Positions 11,423 through 18,529 of a DNA stretch of 32,917 bases are shown one piece after another. Every line of letters begins with the position of its first letter. The stretch's first letter is position 1. Source of the stretch: Bacteroidota bacterium (GTDB lineage: Bacteria; Bacteroidota; Bacteroidia; Bacteroidales; F082); the NCBI GenBank assembly GCA_018336075.1, contig JAGXRB010000321.1, forward strand, positions 1-32,917, read 5' to 3'. The notes below the pieces were generated by a model that searched no databases, was not told the origin of the DNA, and worked only from the letters and a program-made list of their open reading frames with translations. The position numbers were made by a program, and so were the translations under genes.

Positions 11423-12499
11423 ATGAGTTATAGATACAAAAAGCTCATTCCATTGGCATTATTGCTGTTGATTTTAGGAGGGTTATTTTTTTTACCCATA
11501 AAAGTACCATTTAGTTTCCAGTCGATGGGATTGTTGAATCCTTCAAAAAAATGGAGTCTGCGCACAGACCTTGATGGAAATTTCTACAGCGAACTGAAGA
11601 ATTTTCAGTCAGGCGTTATAGAACAATCAACCAGTTATCGCTTTGAAAGGGGTGATATAGCATCTTTATTTTTCTCTAAAGAGATTGCAAACAATGCCTC
11701 AATTTTTAAGAACGACACAATTGGTATGCTTTCTTCAAGGCTTGTGGAGGACAGGATTCAAAAACTTGAAAGTGAAATGCTGGTTTGGGAACAACAACTT
11801 CAAAGCCGTAAATCCGGTGAAAAGGAGGCTGTGGTTGAAGAATTGCGGCAGAAATTAATTTATGCCCAACAGCAGTTCGAACTGACACAGAAAAACTTTG
11901 AACGCTCGCAAATACTTTTCCTTGACAGCCTGATAGCAAGAGATAGATTTGAGTCGGCTGAAACGGAATTTATTACGGCAAAAACCAATATTGAAATTGC
12001 CCGGAATAGTTACAATGCAGTTTTATCCGGTGCAAAACCTGCAGATATAAAACTTGTAGAAGAGCAGATTCTGGCAAGTCAGAAAGAATTACAATTTTTG
12101 GAAGAAACCAGACAAAAGTATGTTTTGCTTTCACCTTTATCCGGAAAGCTGGTTTTGAACCAATATTTGCCCAAAGAGGTTGAGTATATTTCCATCATCG
12201 ACACTACTGAATTTATCTTGTATGCGCCGGTGAAATTTCATTACAAACCTTATCTGAGCTACGATCTGAAAATTGATTTTACTATTCCCGGAACTGACGA
12301 AACAGTTCAGGCAACGATATTTGACTTCACCGAACATGTGGAAATCATCAGTTCGAATCAGGTAATTTTTGTGAAAGCACGTATCTCTGATCCACCGGCT
12401 TCACTTATACCGGGGCTTTCGGTGAAATGCAAATTTGCAGGCGAACCTGTGACATTGAGGGAATACGTGAAACGAACACTTGACATTTTTTTACGGTAA
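11423..12499 (+). CDS. HlyD-like membrane-fusion/adaptor protein
   Basis: This 358-aa protein has one N-terminal transmembrane anchor (LIPLALLLLILGGLFFLPI, about 9-27). A long alpha-helical hairpin rich in Gln, Glu and Lys follows (about 105-235, for example KLIYAQQQFELTQKNFERSQ). Then comes a lipoyl/barrel-like part (VLLSPLSGKLVLNQYLPKEVE) and a beta-rich C-terminal domain (SLIPGLSVKCKF). That is the architecture of periplasmic adaptors of tripartite exporters. No ABC, RND or TolC-type gene adjoins it; instead it is followed 6 nt later by a VTC-domain polymerase and a DUF4956 membrane protein. It is therefore likely a partner in that unit rather than a drug exporter. Confidence 0.8.
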   Translation: MSYRYKKLIPLALLLLILGGLFFLPIKVPFSFQSMGLLNPSKKWSLRTDLDGNFYSELKNFQSGVIEQSTSYRFERGDIASLFFSKEIANNASIFKNDTIGMLSSRLVEDRIQKLESEMLVWEQQLQSRKSGEKEAVVEELRQKLIYAQQQFELTQKNFERSQILFLDSLIARDRFESAETEFITAKTNIEIARNSYNAVLSGAKPADIKLVEEQILASQKELQFLEETRQKYVLLSPLSGKLVLNQYLPKEVEYISIIDTTEFILYAPVKFHYKPYLSYDLKIDFTIPGTDETVQATIFDFTEHVEIISSNQVIFVKARISDPPASLIPGLSVKCKFAGEPVTLREYVKRTLDIFLR

Positions 12500-12505
12500 A
12501 TCAAA

Positions 12506-13288
12506 ATGCTGCGCTACGAATACAAATATTTTGTCCCAAACAATAAAATGGACACCCTTCGCCGGATGATAGCACCCTTTGTCAGCTATGACAAATACAG
12601 TGAAAAGATGGAGGAAAAGCATTATACAGTGCGTAGCATCTATTTTGATACTGCCGGATATGGCTGTTATTTTGAAAAAGTTGAAGGGATAAAGCATCGC
12701 AAAAAGTTCCGTTTAAGAGGTTACAATTTGCCTGAAAATATTGACCCGCAGGTGTTTTTTGAGATTAAAAGAAAATTTGAAGTTCCTATTATTAAAAACA
12801 GAGCTCCTGTGGCTTTTGACAGTGCGCTCCAAATGTTTACTGGCAATTATTTGGACAAATATCTTCCCGACACAGAAAAGTATCCCCGATCGGAGGAAAA
12901 CCTCAAACGCTTTTTTTATCACTATCATACTCACAAGCTTCGGCCTGTGATTCTTGTGATTTATGAAAGAGAAGCATTTCTGGGTAATCATGACGATTCC
13001 ATCAGGGTTACCTTTGATAAAAATCTCAGGAGTGTTGCTTTTCCCAACATAGAAGAGCTTTACTCTGAAAATAATGTCAGGAGATCTCTTTCTGAACGCT
13101 TTATTCTGGAAGTAAAATTTAACGACCATTTTCCTTCATGGATGAAGCCTGTTATCGGTACATTGGGGTTAAGGCGACAATCAGTTTCAAAATATGTGAT
13201 CTCTATCGATACGCATAATTTTATCAAGCCTAAAAAGCTTCCTTCCATCTATTCACACACACAGATTTACAGAAATAACAAGAATTGA
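12506..13288 (+). CDS. VTC-domain polyphosphate polymerase
   Basis: The 260-aa protein is a stand-alone VTC (vacuolar transporter chaperone, triphosphate-tunnel) catalytic domain. Visible tunnel residues are RYEYKY (Arg3, Glu5, Lys7), TVRSIYFDT (Arg43), KKFRLRGY (Lys67, Arg69, Arg71), FFEIKRK (Glu86, Lys88), VIYERE (Arg155), RVTFD (Arg167), ILEVKF (Glu202, Lys204) and SVSKY (Lys229). By homology with yeast Vtc4 it should build polyphosphate from ATP, with the product threaded through a membrane partner. All basic tunnel positions and metal-binding acids look intact. It starts 6 nt after the adaptor gene and ends 1 nt before the DUF4956 gene. Confidence 0.88.
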   Translation: MLRYEYKYFVPNNKMDTLRRMIAPFVSYDKYSEKMEEKHYTVRSIYFDTAGYGCYFEKVEGIKHRKKFRLRGYNLPENIDPQVFFEIKRKFEVPIIKNRAPVAFDSALQMFTGNYLDKYLPDTEKYPRSEENLKRFFYHYHTHKLRPVILVIYEREAFLGNHDDSIRVTFDKNLRSVAFPNIEELYSENNVRRSLSERFILEVKFNDHFPSWMKPVIGTLGLRRQSVSKYVISIDTHNFIKPKKLPSIYSHTQIYRNNKN

Positions 13289-13289
13289 T

Positions 13290-13979
13290 ATGTTTGAAGA
13301 ATTTCAGAATTTTGACCTTTTTCCTGTAACAGTTTTTACTGTTATTGGCAATCTTATCGTTTCATTTGTCTGTGGAATTGTGATTTCTCTTGTCTATCGT
13401 TTTGTTTACAAAGGGCCAAGTTATTCGGTCACTTTTGTCAATTCTCTGGTATTTCTCTCCATGATTACGTCAGTTGTAATTCTTGTGATTGGCAACAATC
13501 TGGCTACCGCTTTTGGTTTAGTCGGTGCAATGTCAATTATTCGTTTCAGGACAGCAGTGCGCGATGTGCAGGACATTGTTTTTATTTTCTTTTCTCTGGT
13601 TGTGGGTATGGCTGCAGGCGTTGGGCTCTATTCAGTGGCAATTGCCGGAACACTTTTTATCAGTCTGGCCATTATTCTATTATCGGTGACAAATTTTGGG
13701 CAGGCCAAAAAACGGGAGTTTTTGCTGCAACTAACGTATAACAGCGGCACTGAAAACGAAGCTATGATTGATACTATTCTTAAAAGTCATTGTCGGAGAA
13801 TGAAGCTTGTGAACCTTAAAAATGCCGGTTCGGATTCGGTGCTCGAAGCGCATTACCATGTTTCACTAAAAGATGAAAGGAAAAACTCACAACTTGTATC
13901 AGACCTCCTTGCCTCACCGGCGGTGCTCGATGTGAATCTCTATTTCGATGAAGATGATGTGAATCCGCCAACATATTAG
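13290..13979 (+). CDS. DUF4956 integral membrane protein
   Basis: The 229-aa protein has about four transmembrane helices in residues 15-145 and a soluble C-terminal domain (about 150-229). Its most distinctive part is the loop GLVGAMSIIRFRTAVRDVQD, a conserved glycine/arginine element of DUF4956. This family is recurrently paired with VTC-domain polymerases in bacteria. Here it starts 1 nt after the VTC gene, so it is very likely the membrane partner, perhaps the channel or anchor for polyphosphate. A strong convergent hairpin follows at 14019-14055. Confidence 0.85.
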   Translation: MFEEFQNFDLFPVTVFTVIGNLIVSFVCGIVISLVYRFVYKGPSYSVTFVNSLVFLSMITSVVILVIGNNLATAFGLVGAMSIIRFRTAVRDVQDIVFIFFSLVVGMAAGVGLYSVAIAGTLFISLAIILLSVTNFGQAKKREFLLQLTYNSGTENEAMIDTILKSHCRRMKLVNLKNAGSDSVLEAHYHVSLKDERKNSQLVSDLLASPAVLDVNLYFDEDDVNPPTY

Positions 13980-14082: not shown

Positions 14083-14577
14083 CTATTTCTGCCTTTTCAG
14101 TATTTTTATGCTTAAGCCTTTTTGAGCTGACCAGCCTTCTTTGTCAGTCAGACTGATAAAAAAGTGGTAATCACCTTCATCAAACTCACCATTTGCATTT
14201 CCTTGTGGAATCAGCATTTCCAGATTCGGTTCATAAACTGTTGAACCTTCAGGAATGCTGTGGCTTTTGATAAAAACGTAAGGATTAACCGCTGGTTTCA
14301 CGGGCCAAAGCTCACAAACGGTCACTTCAGTACTGTGCGCATGATGATCAAAATTTTGGTGGATTTCGATGCTGAAGGCGCCTAATTCTTTGTTATCAAT
14401 AAATTTTGCTATAAAATTGAATGCTTCACCAAAATAAATTGTATCGCAATTAACTGGAAAAGCATTGGAATAATTGATGTCGATTTCGGGCTTTTGATCA
14501 TCGATTTCCTCTTTGCTGCAAGCATGAAAAAGAATGCTAATGAAAAGAAAAAAGACAATGGTGCGTGAAACTCTCAT
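14083..14577 (-). CDS. DUF4625 lipoprotein (second copy)
   Basis: The 164-aa protein has a lipoprotein signal (FFLFISILFHACS, lipobox Cys at about 20). The beta-sandwich pattern that follows is typical of DUF4625: a short linker KPEIDINYSNAFPVNCDTIYFGE, then GAFSIEIHQNFDHHAHS, and near the end DEGDYHFFISLTDKEGW. It carries a His cluster (HHAH). It is the last gene of the Fur/TonB-receptor operon, 57 nt after a paralogous DUF4625 gene. Outer-membrane or periplasmic metal binding is inferred from the His cluster and the gene context, not proven. Confidence 0.78.
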   Translation of the reverse strand: MRVSRTIVFFLFISILFHACSKEEIDDQKPEIDINYSNAFPVNCDTIYFGEAFNFIAKFIDNKELGAFSIEIHQNFDHHAHSTEVTVCELWPVKPAVNPYVFIKSHSIPEGSTVYEPNLEMLIPQGNANGEFDEGDYHFFISLTDKEGWSAQKGLSIKILKRQK

Positions 14578-14634
14578 GATTGATTTTTTGAATTAGTTAT
14601 AGCAGTATTCTATAACAAACGAAATTGGATTTGG

Positions 14635-15093
14635 TTATTTTACCGGAGCAGAAAGCTTTATTTCCAGTTCGCGTTCAACCTCTGCTTTGTTGCCTTCCAT
14701 ATCTATTACAGCAAAATGAAAATGATAGTCGCCAGTTTCAGCATCAGCAGGAATGTCCAGATCTTCGTGAAAAATGGTGTTTTTCAATCCTGAAAATTTT
14801 ACATAGGTTGAGTCAACTTCCCATTCACCTTCGCTCAGGATGTAGCTGGCAAACTTTTTGCCATGTTCACCTTCGTGATGAATTTTTATTTCGATTCTGT
14901 TTATTTTGCCCTCAGCCACAATATCAGCTTCAATATGTAGATCGCTTCCGGGATAGGCGGAATTACTGTTGTCATGCCCGAGTTCAAAGTTTTTGATTTC
15001 AGGTTTGGAAATTTCTTTGTCTTTGTTGCAAGAGCTTAAAGAAAAGATAGTTAGAGCAAAAAACATTGCAAAAATTACATGAGTTGTTTTCAT
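14635..15093 (-). CDS. DUF4625 lipoprotein (first copy)
   Basis: The 152-aa protein has a lipoprotein signal (FFALTIFSLSSCN, Cys at about 22) and the DUF4625 layout: KPEIKNFELG, then GSDLHIEADI, RIEIKIHHEGEHGKKF, DIPADAETGDYHFHFAVID and VERELEIKL. It is rich in histidine (HHEGEH, YHFHF), as is its downstream paralogue, although the two are clearly diverged. It follows the TonB-dependent receptor gene by 58 nt. The likely role is a surface or periplasmic metal-binding partner of the receptor. Confidence 0.8.
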   Translation of the reverse strand: MKTTHVIFAMFFALTIFSLSSCNKDKEISKPEIKNFELGHDNSNSAYPGSDLHIEADIVAEGKINRIEIKIHHEGEHGKKFASYILSEGEWEVDSTYVKFSGLKNTIFHEDLDIPADAETGDYHFHFAVIDMEGNKAEVERELEIKLSAPVK

Positions 15094-15151
15094 AGTTTAA
15101 ATGGGTATTTAATTAATTATTCGATGAGTTTGTTTAAAGTATTTTAATAAG

Positions 15152-17575
15152 TCATTCATTTATAGTGCGTTCAAAAGGAATTCTGATGCCGATACTCAGA
15201 CTTCTTCCAGGCTCGGGCACATTGATGAGCCTGTAATAGCTCATGTGATTGAAATATTTTTGGTTCATCAGATTATGAAGTTGAATATTAATCGAAATGA
15301 ACTGTTTTTTAATCTTAAAATCTGCACCGACGCTTAAATCTATCACCTGATAACCCTTGGTTTTTTCCTCAGGTGGTACAATTTTGTTTTGCGGGGCTGT
15401 CAGTTTGTAGTCGACGGACAAATAGGAGTTTTCAAAATTCATGATATTTTTCGGCAAAAATTTCAGGTTCAGCAAAAGGGATGCCGGAGGAGAAAAAGGC
15501 ATTGTAAAACCTTTTTTAGCTCCCGATAATTGCTCAGAATAAACATATTCGCCAATAACTCCCGATTTCAATGTTCTGCTCAGATCGAAGTGTGCATGGA
15601 TTTCGCCGCCAAAACGAAATACGCTGCTTTCGGTATAATTGAAAATCTGATTGCCGTTTCCATAGAGCTGATCATGTTCAAAACCGGGATTGAGGTATAT
15701 ATAGTTGGAAAAATAATTCACAAAAGGGCTGAACCCAATAGCGATTTTTCTCCCTGAATATTCAGCATTAAAATCCAGTTGATAAGCGATCTCAGGTTTT
15801 AAATCCGGATTTCCGACTTCATAGCTGAAATGATGATAATTTACGCCATTTGCTGCAAGCTCTTTGGCGATGGGCATACGAAAACTCTTGCCTGCATTGA
15901 CTTTGAAAGTCAGATTCTCAAGATTGTAATTGTATCCAACCGACCAGCTTAAATTCGAAAAACGCCTTGTCAAATCCGGAGCGCGAAGCAGAAATACATC
16001 ATTTATTCCATTGTTGGTCTCTTCCGGACTTGCATACCAGTCATTATAAGCCTCGGTGTTGATGATTCCAAAATCTGTTCTTAACCCCAAATGCAAAAAA
16101 CTTCTTTCCGAAAGTGTGAATTTCCCATAAACGAAAGCACCTGAAGCCGATTGCCTGTAGGCAGGAATCATAAATCCACGGCCATTGATGCTATTGTTTT
16201 GGTGTTCAAAACTCAAGCCTGATGTGAAATGCAGTTTTTCGTTGAAAGTATAGCTGCCTTTCAGATTTGCTGAATAGATATATTTCTCAAATTCACGTTC
16301 AAGATCTGAAGGAAAATCCATAGAATCCGGAAAAATTGGCGGCATATATCCATGATCAACATATTGGCTGTATTCTTGTCTGAAATTCCGCTGAAACCCA
16401 AGTTCCGCTTCCATACGCAGGCCATTTCTCGTCCATTCACTTTTGTTGACGGCCTTGAAATGTTTCACTTCCTGATAGGGATAATTGATGTCTCTGGCAG
16501 AGGCATCGTGCAAAACAGTATCCACTCTGCGGGGTTCAAGTCCGTGGGCATTCGCAAAAAATCCATTGACAGTGTTGATTCTGCTGATAAAAAATCTGCT
16601 GATATAATTGCTCTTCACAAGTCCGAATGAGGCGTGAAGGTTTCGTTCATTGCCAGCAGTATTTCGCAGATTATTGTTATAAAGTGGTGCTCTGTAGCTG
16701 TAAATATCTACGCTGTCGGTTGGCACTTTGTAGTCGGCATAATCAAGAATAGTAGCCCTCAGCGACAGATATAAACTGTTTTTTCTCGCAAAAACTGAAA
16801 CGGAACTACCTAGAAGATCGTTGTTTGTTTTTCCAATAAAATCAATGTTTCCGCCTATTGTGTTGTTGGAAGGAATACCTGATTGCTTCAAATCAACGAT
16901 TCCACCAATGGCATCGGAGCCATACATCAGAGATGCAGGGCCTTTGATTACCTCAATGTTTTCAACGGCAAACTGATCTATCTCCAAACCATGATCAGAA
17001 CCCCATTGCTGACCTTCGTGCTTTACACCGTTTTCGACAACAACTACCCTGTTAAAGCCGAGGCCACGAATGACTGGTTTCGACTGACCTGCTCCAATGT
17101 CTATTGTGCTGACGCCAGGCAAACGATCAAGGGATTTCATCAGGCTTCCACCAAGGTTTTGCCGCAAAAAAACATCATTTACAACTTCAGAGTTTAATGA
17201 ATTTTCCCTTCTTCTCGTTTCAATGGAATTGTCGAATATCTCAACTTCCTGAAGGGTTGTCCGTTGTGGAGCCATGGAAAAAGTGAGGTAAAGATTTTGC
17301 TCAATATTCAATTGTTTGGTTTCAGTTTTATAGCCAAGAAATGAGATTTTCAATGTGTAATTCCCTTTTTGAAGGTCATCTAGTTTGAATAGACCATTCG
17401 CATCTGTTGCAATAGCTTTTTGACCCGGCATAATGACAACCAATGCTCCCGGCAAGGGAATATTGTTTTCATCGCTGACTTTTCCCAAAAGTTCAAAATT
17501 CTGACTGTAAACAGAAGAAAATGAAACCGTCAAAAAAATGTATATGATGAGATATCGTCTCAAAAATAATTGCAT
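15152..17575 (-). CDS. TonB-dependent outer-membrane receptor, probable metal/metallophore type
   Basis: The ATG at 17575 gives 807 aa with a signal peptide (YLIIYIFLTVSFSSVYSQ). Further upstream in-frame codons (to 17764) read as non-signal sequence and overlap the preceding gene. Domains: carboxypeptidase-regulatory-like beta-sandwich (about 28-110, LLGKVSDENNIPLPGA), TonB plug (about 125-240, ending VIKGPASLMYGSDAIGGIVD), then a 22-strand barrel ending RSLSIGIRIPF. The plug stretch VKHEGQQWGSDHGLE and the barrel segment ELAANGVNYHHFSYEVGNPD resemble His-bearing zinc receptors of the ZnuD type. The Fur-family gene upstream fits metal uptake. Confidence 0.88.
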   Translation of the reverse strand: MQLFLRRYLIIYIFLTVSFSSVYSQNFELLGKVSDENNIPLPGALVVIMPGQKAIATDANGLFKLDDLQKGNYTLKISFLGYKTETKQLNIEQNLYLTFSMAPQRTTLQEVEIFDNSIETRRRENSLNSEVVNDVFLRQNLGGSLMKSLDRLPGVSTIDIGAGQSKPVIRGLGFNRVVVVENGVKHEGQQWGSDHGLEIDQFAVENIEVIKGPASLMYGSDAIGGIVDLKQSGIPSNNTIGGNIDFIGKTNNDLLGSSVSVFARKNSLYLSLRATILDYADYKVPTDSVDIYSYRAPLYNNNLRNTAGNERNLHASFGLVKSNYISRFFISRINTVNGFFANAHGLEPRRVDTVLHDASARDINYPYQEVKHFKAVNKSEWTRNGLRMEAELGFQRNFRQEYSQYVDHGYMPPIFPDSMDFPSDLEREFEKYIYSANLKGSYTFNEKLHFTSGLSFEHQNNSINGRGFMIPAYRQSASGAFVYGKFTLSERSFLHLGLRTDFGIINTEAYNDWYASPEETNNGINDVFLLRAPDLTRRFSNLSWSVGYNYNLENLTFKVNAGKSFRMPIAKELAANGVNYHHFSYEVGNPDLKPEIAYQLDFNAEYSGRKIAIGFSPFVNYFSNYIYLNPGFEHDQLYGNGNQIFNYTESSVFRFGGEIHAHFDLSRTLKSGVIGEYVYSEQLSGAKKGFTMPFSPPASLLLNLKFLPKNIMNFENSYLSVDYKLTAPQNKIVPPEEKTKGYQVIDLSVGADFKIKKQFISINIQLHNLMNQKYFNHMSYYRLINVPEPGRSLSIGIRIPFERTINE

Positions 17576-17717
17576 AGAAGGATTTTGATAAAAAGAGAAT
17601 TCACCGGATGCAAGCTGAAATCTGGCTTGAAACAAATTTTTAGGTCTTCCTCGACAATAAAATACTGGATTTCTTTTGAGGAAATTCAATCCGTAATTAT
17701 CTGAAGGAAAGTGCTGA

Positions 17718-18077
17718 TTATGCCTTAACCGGCGGTGCACGTGGCGTGCCGGGATGGCTTTCAAAGCCTAAATGTGGTGCTTCAGCAATGATGTTCCGGA
17801 TCAAAAAATGAACATCGATATCAAAACCAAAGTTGAAGGCTTGCGGGATGTTTTTTAAAGAGATTTTGTAGTCACAAATCAGGCAATTACCGTCTGATCC
17901 TTCACCAATGAAAGGGTTGAATGCTAAAGCCTCAGAATTGACAGAATTAATCGAACACTCAAAACCGGAGCAATGATGGTGCTCAGCATGTACCAAAAAA
18001 TGCGTGCTTTGAACCAGTATCGGGAATATAAATATTCCGGCTAAAACGAAGGCGATATGTGATTTAATTTTCTTCAA
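17718..18077 (-). CDS. Small secreted His/Cys-rich protein
   Basis: The 119-aa protein starts with a signal peptide (IAFVLAGIFIFPILVQS). It then has a metal-ligand-like cluster HFLVHAEHHHCSGFEC, a later NCLICDY, and a C-terminal tail ending GTPRAPPVKA. It lies 1 nt after the Fur-family gene and upstream of the TonB-dependent receptor. Small exported proteins with His and CxxC motifs and a terminal RxPP tail sit next to metal-related TonB receptors in other bacteria (DUF2946-like, HYC_CC_PP-like); I note the resemblance but cannot assign the family. Metal binding is an inference from residues and neighbours. Confidence 0.65.
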   Translation of the reverse strand: MKKIKSHIAFVLAGIFIFPILVQSTHFLVHAEHHHCSGFECSINSVNSEALAFNPFIGEGSDGNCLICDYKISLKNIPQAFNFGFDIDVHFLIRNIIAEAPHLGFESHPGTPRAPPVKA

Positions 18078-18078
18078 T

Positions 18079-18489
18079 TTATTCAGCAGTTGTTTTGCAT
18101 TTGCTGCAGCAGCCTTTTATAATCATTTCGGTTTCTGAACTGGTGAAACCGGCCGGAAGTTGCGGTATTGTTACCGGAATTGAATCCATGCACTGAACTG
18201 TATCGCATTCATGGCAGTAAAAATGTGCGTGACTGTGTTTTTGTGTGACAGCGTTGTCCAGCGCGTATTTTACAATTTGATTGTCCACAACAATTTTGTG
18301 AATAATCTTGCTGTCATGCAAAGTTTTGAAAGAGCGATAGAAAGTTGTACGGTCATAATTGCCTACCAACTTTTCCCTGATCTCATTTTCAGATAGTGCC
18401 ATACCTGCATGCATAATCGTCTCAATAATGCCTTCGCGACAACTTGTTCGTTTGAGCTGATGCTCATGCAATATTTGAGAAGCTTCCAT
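18079..18489 (-). CDS. Fur-family metal-dependent transcriptional repressor (Fur/Zur type)
   Basis: The ATG at 18489 gives 136 aa; an in-frame ATG at 18513 lies within the palindromic operator and is disfavoured. The N-terminal winged helix reads QLKRTSCREGIIETIMHAG, then RTTFYRSFKTLHDSKIIHKI. The C-terminal dimerisation part has HSHAHFYCHECDTVQ and the CCSKC motif, giving two CxxC pairs for a structural zinc. It is the first gene of an operon with a His/Cys protein, a TonB receptor and two DUF4625 lipoproteins. The perfect inverted repeat at 18509-18523 beside its -7 box is the obvious autoregulatory site. Zn, Fe or another metal cannot be told apart from sequence alone. Confidence 0.87.
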   Translation of the reverse strand: MEASQILHEHQLKRTSCREGIIETIMHAGMALSENEIREKLVGNYDRTTFYRSFKTLHDSKIIHKIVVDNQIVKYALDNAVTQKHSHAHFYCHECDTVQCMDSIPVTIPQLPAGFTSSETEMIIKGCCSKCKTTAE

Positions 18490-18508
18490 TATGCAATACT
18501 GTTTTAAA

Positions 18509-18523
18509 TGCAACGAGGTTGCA
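18509..18523. promoter_or_regulatory. Perfect Fur-family-type operator TGCAAC-N3-GTTGCA
   Basis: TGCAAC (18509-18514) and GTTGCA (18518-18523) are exact inverted repeats around a 3-nt centre. They end 20 nt upstream of the Fur-family ATG and overlap the -7 box at 18522-18529. A bound dimer would block the promoter. The half-sites resemble TTGCAA-type boxes of some Fur-family regulators. Confidence 0.7.
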
Positions 18524-18529
18524 AATGTA
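18522..18529 (-). promoter_or_regulatory. -7 box (TACATTTG) of the Fur/TonB-receptor operon
   Basis: The minus strand reads TACATTTG, an exact TAnnTTTG match, 33 nt upstream of the ATG at 18489 and overlapping the palindromic operator by 2 nt. A minus-strand TTG lies 17 nt further upstream (18547-18549); the spacing is short for a -33 element. Confidence 0.5.

Follow-up and report, generated by a model that had tools for sequence, protein, structure and literature searches.

A probable Zur-type zinc-scavenging operon with a ZnuD-like receptor and DUF4625 lipoproteins in Bacteroidota

Introduction

ZnuD of Neisseria meningitidis is a zinc-regulated TonB-dependent receptor, with a high-affinity zinc site formed by Asp-99, His-100, Glu-340 and His-499 (PMC4557270). 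Zur regulons that include TonB receptors have been catalogued in a review (PMC6103462), and in Caulobacter the regulon includes znuK/L/M and znuGHI (PMC4176598). In Bacteroides, XusA and XusB are a xenosiderophore receptor and its lipoprotein (PMC12574912). Here, we describe an island of five genes in a 32,917-nt stretch of DNA from a Bacteroidota bacterium of the order Bacteroidales (contig JAGXRB010000321.1 of assembly GCA_018336075.1; hereafter the window), which encodes a Fur-family regulator, a small His/Cys protein (HC), a TonB-dependent receptor and two lipoproteins of the DUF4625 family (D2 and D1). Comparison with related genomes leads us to conclude that the island is very probably a Zur-type zinc-scavenging operon, with a ZnuD-like receptor, HC and the DUF4625 lipoproteins as its working parts.

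The island shares features with each of these systems and departs from each of them. ZnuD is the nearest solved relative of the receptor and its plug Asp-His pair is aligned, whereas the window receptor has an N-terminal CarbopepD_reg_2 domain and adjoins DUF4625 lipoproteins and HC. In common with the Zur regulons described in PMC4176598 and PMC6103462, the island has a predicted Fur-family repressor, a palindromic operator and a receptor, and znuABC, COG0523 and FolE genes occur in relatives of the window; however, the Caulobacter Zur sites printed in PMC4176598 differ from the window's box, and the window operon includes the regulator gene itself, DUF4625 and HC. XusA and XusB are similar in that a lipoprotein partners a TonB receptor in capturing a nutrient metal, but their ligand is an iron-loaded siderophore, and the likeness is one of partnership rather than of compared protein families. 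Finally, genes resembling the zinc metallochaperone AztD (NF038015) are clustered with the receptor and DUF4625 in eleven related loci, although the two AztD-like proteins scored reach 83 and 66 bits against a cut-off of 400, and none is encoded in the window island.

Zinc uptake and its regulator seem to be little described in Bacteroidota. The main text of the Zur-regulon review PMC6103462 contains no word beginning 'bacteroid' or 'flavobacter', and the accessible part of a paper on zinc in Riemerella mentions Zur only for other bacteria. Literature searches for DUF4625 or PF15418, and for surface lipoprotein, zinc acquisition, TonB and Bacteroid in combination, found no paper, subscription papers being mostly outside their scope.

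Results

Organization and recurrence of the island

The genes were read from minus-strand open reading frames within the window and occupy positions 14083-18489, in the order Fur regulator (18079-18489, 136 aa), HC (17718-18077, 119 aa with a TTG start), receptor (15152-17575, 807 aa from an ATG), D2 (14635-15093, 152 aa) and D1 (14083-14577, 164 aa), separated by gaps of 1, 142, 58 and 57 nt. The regulator begins with an ATG at 18489, from which an in-frame TTG at 18513 would lengthen it to 144 aa, and a TTG extension of the receptor is possible to 17764. A first-pass annotation of the window had already reported five genes on one strand with these gaps, headed by a palindromic operator and encoding the histidine motifs HAEHHHC, HHAH, HHEGEH, KHEGQQ and SDHGLE; the coordinates agree, every motif is present in the translations, and the operator, at 18524-18509, is conserved in related operons beyond chance.

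The Fur, HC, receptor and DUF4625 unit recurs in Bacteroidota. PF15418, the Pfam family of DUF4625, was found in 33 of 100 genomes of relatives (32 above the cut-off); of 395 genomes sampled from the phylum, 22 have it and 18 exceed the cut-off. The source genome is counted in both samples. The two samples yielded 52 loci above the cut-off (L060-L099 and L237-L248 in our numbering), the window excluded and some genomes contributing more than one; four weaker loci (L249-L252) and a match in genome G018, all of them below the Pfam cut-off, were left uncounted. A TonB receptor was clustered with DUF4625 in 41 of the 52, and two were cut by contig ends, so that the annotation's expectation that DUF4625 would not occur mostly outside such operons held. 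In a second set, the best 80 of 206 loci by similarity to D1, drawn partly from the same genomes, the receptor was in the cluster in 73 and the full order of Fur, HC, receptor and DUF4625 was kept in 40. Carriers of the operon include relatives in culture, among them Mariniphaga, Maribellus and laboratory strains of Flavobacterium.

A palindromic operator overlapping a promoter element

The sequence TTGCAAC-CTC-GTTGCA occupies 18509-18524 on the minus strand, upstream of the regulator. We compared 96 upstream regions of related operons (the window and L060-L179, identical regions removed), many of which are related to one another so that the loci are not independent, and found the box TGCAAC-N3-GTTGCA with at most one mismatch in 66, against 6 of 4800 dinucleotide shuffles. 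Its frequency depended on the leading gene: 48/49 regions led by Fur, 14/24 by HC, 4/14 by the receptor and 0/9 by DUF4625. Its presence before HC and receptor genes means that the box is kept even where no regulator gene leads.

The operator overlaps TACATTTG (18522-18529, minus strand), a match to TAnnTTTG, which we take to be the Bacteroidota -7 promoter element. Of the 66 boxes in the related regions, 44 (including 38 of those 48 that precede Fur genes) complete the full TAnnTTTG with their first half-site, and 45 have TA at the corresponding offset, while the background frequency of this dinucleotide is 8.4%. This overlap suggests that a bound regulator would repress by covering the promoter.

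Beyond these operons, exact matches to TTGCAACNNNGTTGCA occurred in 34 of 100 related genomes and its reversed control in one, and many of the exact sites fall at other Fur-linked loci. Twenty stretches were fetched around exact sites outside DUF4625 operons, from most of the site-bearing genomes; 15 hold a Fur-family gene by profile match, many of them at RND efflux loci, and hence what the box marks is control by the Fur family, not zinc alone. We rejected it as sufficient proof of zinc, since it is also found at RND efflux loci of another Fur group.

Judged by eye, Fur genes and the box accompany RND-type efflux genes at nine loci (L217, L218, L219, L220, L222, L223, L231, L235 and L236), often with small His-rich proteins; the one RND protein scored, that of L218, reached 1151 bits on the CusA/CzcA model. 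A Fur-type regulator on efflux genes is unusual. For Caulobacter, PMC4176598 reports that Zur activates efflux genes.

The regulator

The regulator matches Pfam FUR at 38.6 bits (cut-off 23.1). The CXXC...CXXC structural zinc motif typical of the Fur family is present as C92/C95 and C128/C131, which, with H87 and H89, are invariant in 38 sequences. A profile search against solved chains returned ten matches, Fur and PerR being best and FurB/Zur lowest; a search with the single sequence returned no match.

In a first tree of Fur proteins, the window regulator, those of the DUF4625 operons and those of two zinc-uptake loci described below (L226 and L234) formed a set of 54 rows (98/88), and regulators from efflux loci a separate set of 15 (99/98). 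A second tree, without the long rows L143, L227, L242, L186, L292 and L297, gave corresponding sets of 52 rows (94/81), including the window regulator, L226 and L234, and of 14 rows (96/92). The Fur proteins of loci with FolE or MerC (L092, L099, L284 and L293) lie on another branch, and the box therefore accompanies several Fur lineages rather than a single one. Two Fur-family genes were found in the source genome, and the second, which is distant from the window regulator, could serve iron. Genomic context predicts the window regulator to be a zinc-dependent repressor that binds the box.

Links to zinc genes in related genomes

Names ending in '-like' or '-type' below denote scores under the cut-off or similarity to one scored protein. 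The same palindromic operator occurs, in one relative each, at the promoter of a znuACB and of a ZIP operon, which points by genomic association to zinc uptake. In G088, from the same order as the source, the box heads an operon of Fur, ZnuA (177 bits), ABC ATPase and ABC-3 permease (236 bits) genes (L226), and this very box also precedes an HC, receptor, DUF4625, DUF4625 operon (L080). In G015, of the same family as the source, a box heads Fur and ZIP genes (L234; 177 bits to Pfam Zip), and at L081 receptor and DUF4625 genes follow a box with one mismatch. In G091 a set of ZnuA, ABC and permease genes lies about 4 kb from the receptor and DUF4625, and no box was found at up to two mismatches in the 18-kb stretch.

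Further zinc genes adjoin other copies of the operon or of the box. Locus L092 (G281) runs in one direction through MerC, GTP cyclohydrolase I, a weakly matching HC, receptor and DUF4625 genes, two CobW-family GTPases (one scoring 565 bits to ZigA, cut-off 600), ABC genes and an alkaline phosphatase, while a Fur gene points the opposite way and is separated from MerC by a stretch that holds a box with one mismatch. In L099 (G290) the DUF4625 operon adjoins Fur, MerC and FolE genes; boxes lie upstream of HC and in the interval from Fur to MerC. Eleven loci (L095-L098, L171, L175, L178 and L237-L240; three are Flavobacterium, the rest one other genus) carry in the cluster a gene like that of L098, which scores 83 bits to AztD. 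A box scan of ten DUF4625-bearing genomes, chosen by hand and searched at up to two mismatches with palindromes counted on both strands, placed the box before an AztD-like gene (L288, 66 bits), a pair of genes, the second of them ZigA-type COG0523 (L295, 529 bits), MerC genes (L284 and L291, and L290 where MerC is second), an HC-like gene (L285, judged by eye) and DUF4625 genes (L246 and L248). The first-pass annotation had read the island as most likely concerned with zinc, and this reading gains genomic support from the related regulator and box at znuACB and ZIP operons and from the linkage of operon and box to AztD-like, ZigA-type and FolE genes.

MerC-family or MerC-like proteins (L092, L099, L284, L290, L291 and L293, the match being scored in L092, L284 and L291) adjoin the box, Fur genes, FolE or an FAD oxidoreductase. 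This setting suggests that in Bacteroidota the 'mercury' proteins have a role connected with zinc. Genes for alkaline phosphatase, a zinc enzyme class, recur near DUF4625 operons (L091, L092, L093, L125 and L160).

The receptor

The receptor scores 97.9 bits for the TonB barrel, 64.1 for the plug and 68.7 for CarbopepD_reg_2 in Pfam, and its nearest solved chain is ZnuD (4rdr, E 1e-22). Its D194-H195 is aligned with the Asp-His pair of the ZnuD plug, which by our own count (offset 14) is Asp-99/His-100. Of 80 aligned receptor rows, 78 have a residue at the position of H195 and it is His in every one, the other two having none in the plug motif. H581, which is His in 78 of 80, falls two columns from ZnuD His-499 by the same count, and Glu-340 is outside the aligned stretches.

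The DUF4625 lipoproteins

D1 and D2 exceed the PF15418 cut-off of 27 bits at 114 and 90.3 bits. Histidine is prominent among their conserved residues. Fifty D1 rows, selected from the window and from the 80 loci similar to D1, were aligned; 20 columns are invariant, and histidine occupies four (H73, H79, H81 and H138). An alignment of D2, restricted to 32 hand-picked single-domain proteins with two-domain D2 and D1-type rows left out, has twelve invariant columns, three of them His (H53, H72 and H109), and H124 is near-invariant; two of the invariant histidines of D1 and D2 are also invariant in a mixed set of 19 sequences. In many loci the protein at the D2 position has two DUF4625 domains. 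Among 100 domain rows from the 52 loci, with gaps counted as not His, the two best columns hold His in 68 and 66 of 86 rows linked to a receptor, in 3 and 2 of nine without a neighbouring receptor and in 3 and 3 of five at contig edges.

Structure models of D1 and D2 (pLDDT 90.9 and 86.0) place DUF4625 among PKD/Ig-like beta-sandwiches, a common arrangement that says nothing on function. The D2 model matches the PKD domain of 4aqo with Z 10.1 and a root-mean-square deviation of 2.0 over 84 residues, tied with other sandwiches at Z 10.1-10.7, and Foldseek gave Ig-like matches with low TM-scores for D1. No relative among solved chains was found for D1 by profile or for D2 by single sequence; a profile of D2 gave 18 matches, led by the PKD domains of KIAA0319L (E 3.8e-7). 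The conserved D2 histidines fall within, or at either end of, model strands 51-59, 64-73, 105-113 and 121-131, and could plausibly form one putative metal site. Taken with the operon context, the invariant histidines suggest that DUF4625 may bind zinc or hand it on.

Export of surface lipoproteins in Bacteroidetes is directed by a lipoprotein export signal (LES), K-(D/E)2 or Q-A-(D/E)2 near the lipid-bearing cysteine (PMC5080379). By that definition C-S-K-E-E of D1 fits K-(D/E)2, and C-N-K-D-K of D2 has no strict fit. At least two acidic residues occur at positions 2-6 after the cysteine in 173 of 207 DUF4625 proteins with a lipobox-like stretch, in a count confined to this family.

DUF4625 genes were seen in two further settings. 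One, which keeps the greater part of the His motif, stands after an ArsP_1/HMA permease gene rather than a receptor gene (L075, 8989-10887), and another lies downstream of an LCIB-type beta-carbonic anhydrase gene (173 bits), behind two box-like sites (L248, 8421-10876).

The small His/Cys protein

HC carries an N-terminal hydrophobic stretch. H26, C65, R113, P115 and P116 are invariant in 43 sequences, and C68 is present in 40 of them. Searches at E 0.1 in Pfam and at E 1 in NCBIfam gave no match for it; in two relatives the HC-type proteins are weakly similar to CzcI and LpqS (17.6 and 16.8 bits, both below the cut-off).

Terminator and neighbouring genes

An intrinsic terminator follows D1 at 14056-14018 (minus strand), with a stem of 18 pairs, four of them G-C, and a fold energy of -26.8 kcal/mol (z -5.9), in keeping with the strong terminator reported by the annotation. 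A terminator scan of the region gave five sites where 4.5 are expected by chance, so the fold score weighs more than the scan match. Plus-strand genes at 11423-13979 converge on the island, namely an OEP match below the cut-off, a VTC-domain gene and a DUF4956 gene; the pairing of VTC and DUF4956 suggests a polyphosphate-related unit.

Discussion

On the zinc-scavenging reading the island would work as follows. With sufficient cytoplasmic zinc, the Fur-family regulator would bind the palindrome over the -7 element and switch off the operon, its own gene included, and zinc starvation would allow expression. The ZnuD-like receptor would then import zinc across the outer membrane; the two DUF4625 lipoproteins may bind zinc through their invariant histidines and pass it to the receptor or take it from it, and HC may handle zinc at the inner membrane or in the periplasm. 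A more specific version of this scheme makes DUF4625 a family of surface-exposed, zinc-capturing lipoproteins serving a ZnuD-like receptor, with D2 (often of two domains) and D1 as a histidine relay, controlled by a Bacteroidota Zur recognizing TGCAAC-N3-GTTGCA over the -7 element. By analogy, DUF4625 would do for a bare metal ion what SusD- and XusB-type lipoproteins do for larger ligands. This joint claim we advance tentatively, as a possibility that falls somewhat short of probable.

Three other explanations bear on the island or on its lipoproteins. We think it unlikely that the DUF4625 proteins are only structural or adhesive lipoproteins carried as passengers by a zinc-regulated receptor operon, a reading compatible with zinc scavenging for the other parts. 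In its favour, solved proteins of adhesion and carbohydrate metabolism often have PKD/Ig-like folds, D2 weakly matches the FimD tip-adhesin model (25.8 bits, cut-off 170), and the copies in L246 and L248 are linked to the box and lack the histidines, whereas histidines are among the few invariant residues of both D1 and D2 and fill the two best columns far more often in rows linked to a receptor than in those without one. Less likely again is an operon for another metal (iron, manganese, copper, cobalt or haem), with Fur, Mur or another sensor as regulator. The ranking of Fur and PerR above FurB/Zur among solved chains would fit it, as would NCBIfam, which places PerR and Fur first for the regulator with all scores far below the cut-off, the receptor's TonB-hemin score of 122.6 bits, close to its ZnuD score and likewise below the cut-off, and an Nramp gene following a box-linked Fur gene of another branch; against it, Fur proteins that group with the window's (subject to long branches) stand at znuACB and ZIP operons, AztD-like, ZigA-type and FolE genes are linked to the operons, and iron could be left to the second Fur protein of the genome.

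A role in metal resistance or efflux, with DUF4625 and HC as metal sponges, we consider very improbable. The box and relatives of the regulator do occur at RND efflux loci with small His-rich proteins, and HC-type proteins have their faint resemblance to CzcI and LpqS, but the conserved unit contains no efflux pump, the regulators of efflux loci form their own set in both trees, and TonB receptors are importers.

Several observations weigh against zinc scavenging as we have described it. The regulator reaches no curated NCBIfam equivalog of the Fur family (at best 37.6 bits on a PerR model with a cut-off of 180) and is hence named Zur-like rather than a curated Zur, and the receptor scores 131.2 bits on the ZnuD model NF038289, so far below its cut-off of 950 that membership in ZnuD proper is not claimed. 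In the trees, the Fur rows of L226 and L234 are long and were flagged by the program as unsure in placement, and bootstrapping of the second tree had not converged. Because other Fur-family proteins use the box at RND efflux loci, its presence alone does not prove uptake. The box was found at one of 24 znuA loci in the 100 relatives, with fetched flanks of about 1.5 kb, so that boxes before longer operons could be missed. In the ten-genome scan there were 91 matches to the box and 39 to its reversed control, with the real pattern no higher than the control in G206 and G474, and single sites may therefore be due to chance. Nine of the 52 DUF4625 loci have no neighbouring receptor, among them L246 and L248, box-linked copies without the histidines.

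The source genome itself (4.79 Mb in 430 contigs, about 94% complete with 8.6% contamination) yielded no ABC-3 permease or ZnuA gene by search, nor was ZnuA found in eight other genomes of its genus; a box search found none at its single ZIP gene. Six places in this genome match TTGCAACNNNGTTGCAW with at most one mismatch, and the five outside the island all lie within open reading frames, leaving one box only that precedes a gene.

Two wider hypotheses were discarded on these counts: a general link of box and Fur to znuABC, given the single znuA locus, and the operator as the marker of a wide regulon in the source genome, the other five one-mismatch places being inside reading frames.

For zinc uptake in Bacteroidota, the present analysis supplies a concrete operator, a group of regulators and a lipoprotein family. 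It proposes a Zur-type zinc receptor operon that includes a lipoprotein family not found described in the literature searched. The point of greatest interest is that, if the proposal is true, DUF4625 proteins would capture zinc at the cell surface for the receptor.

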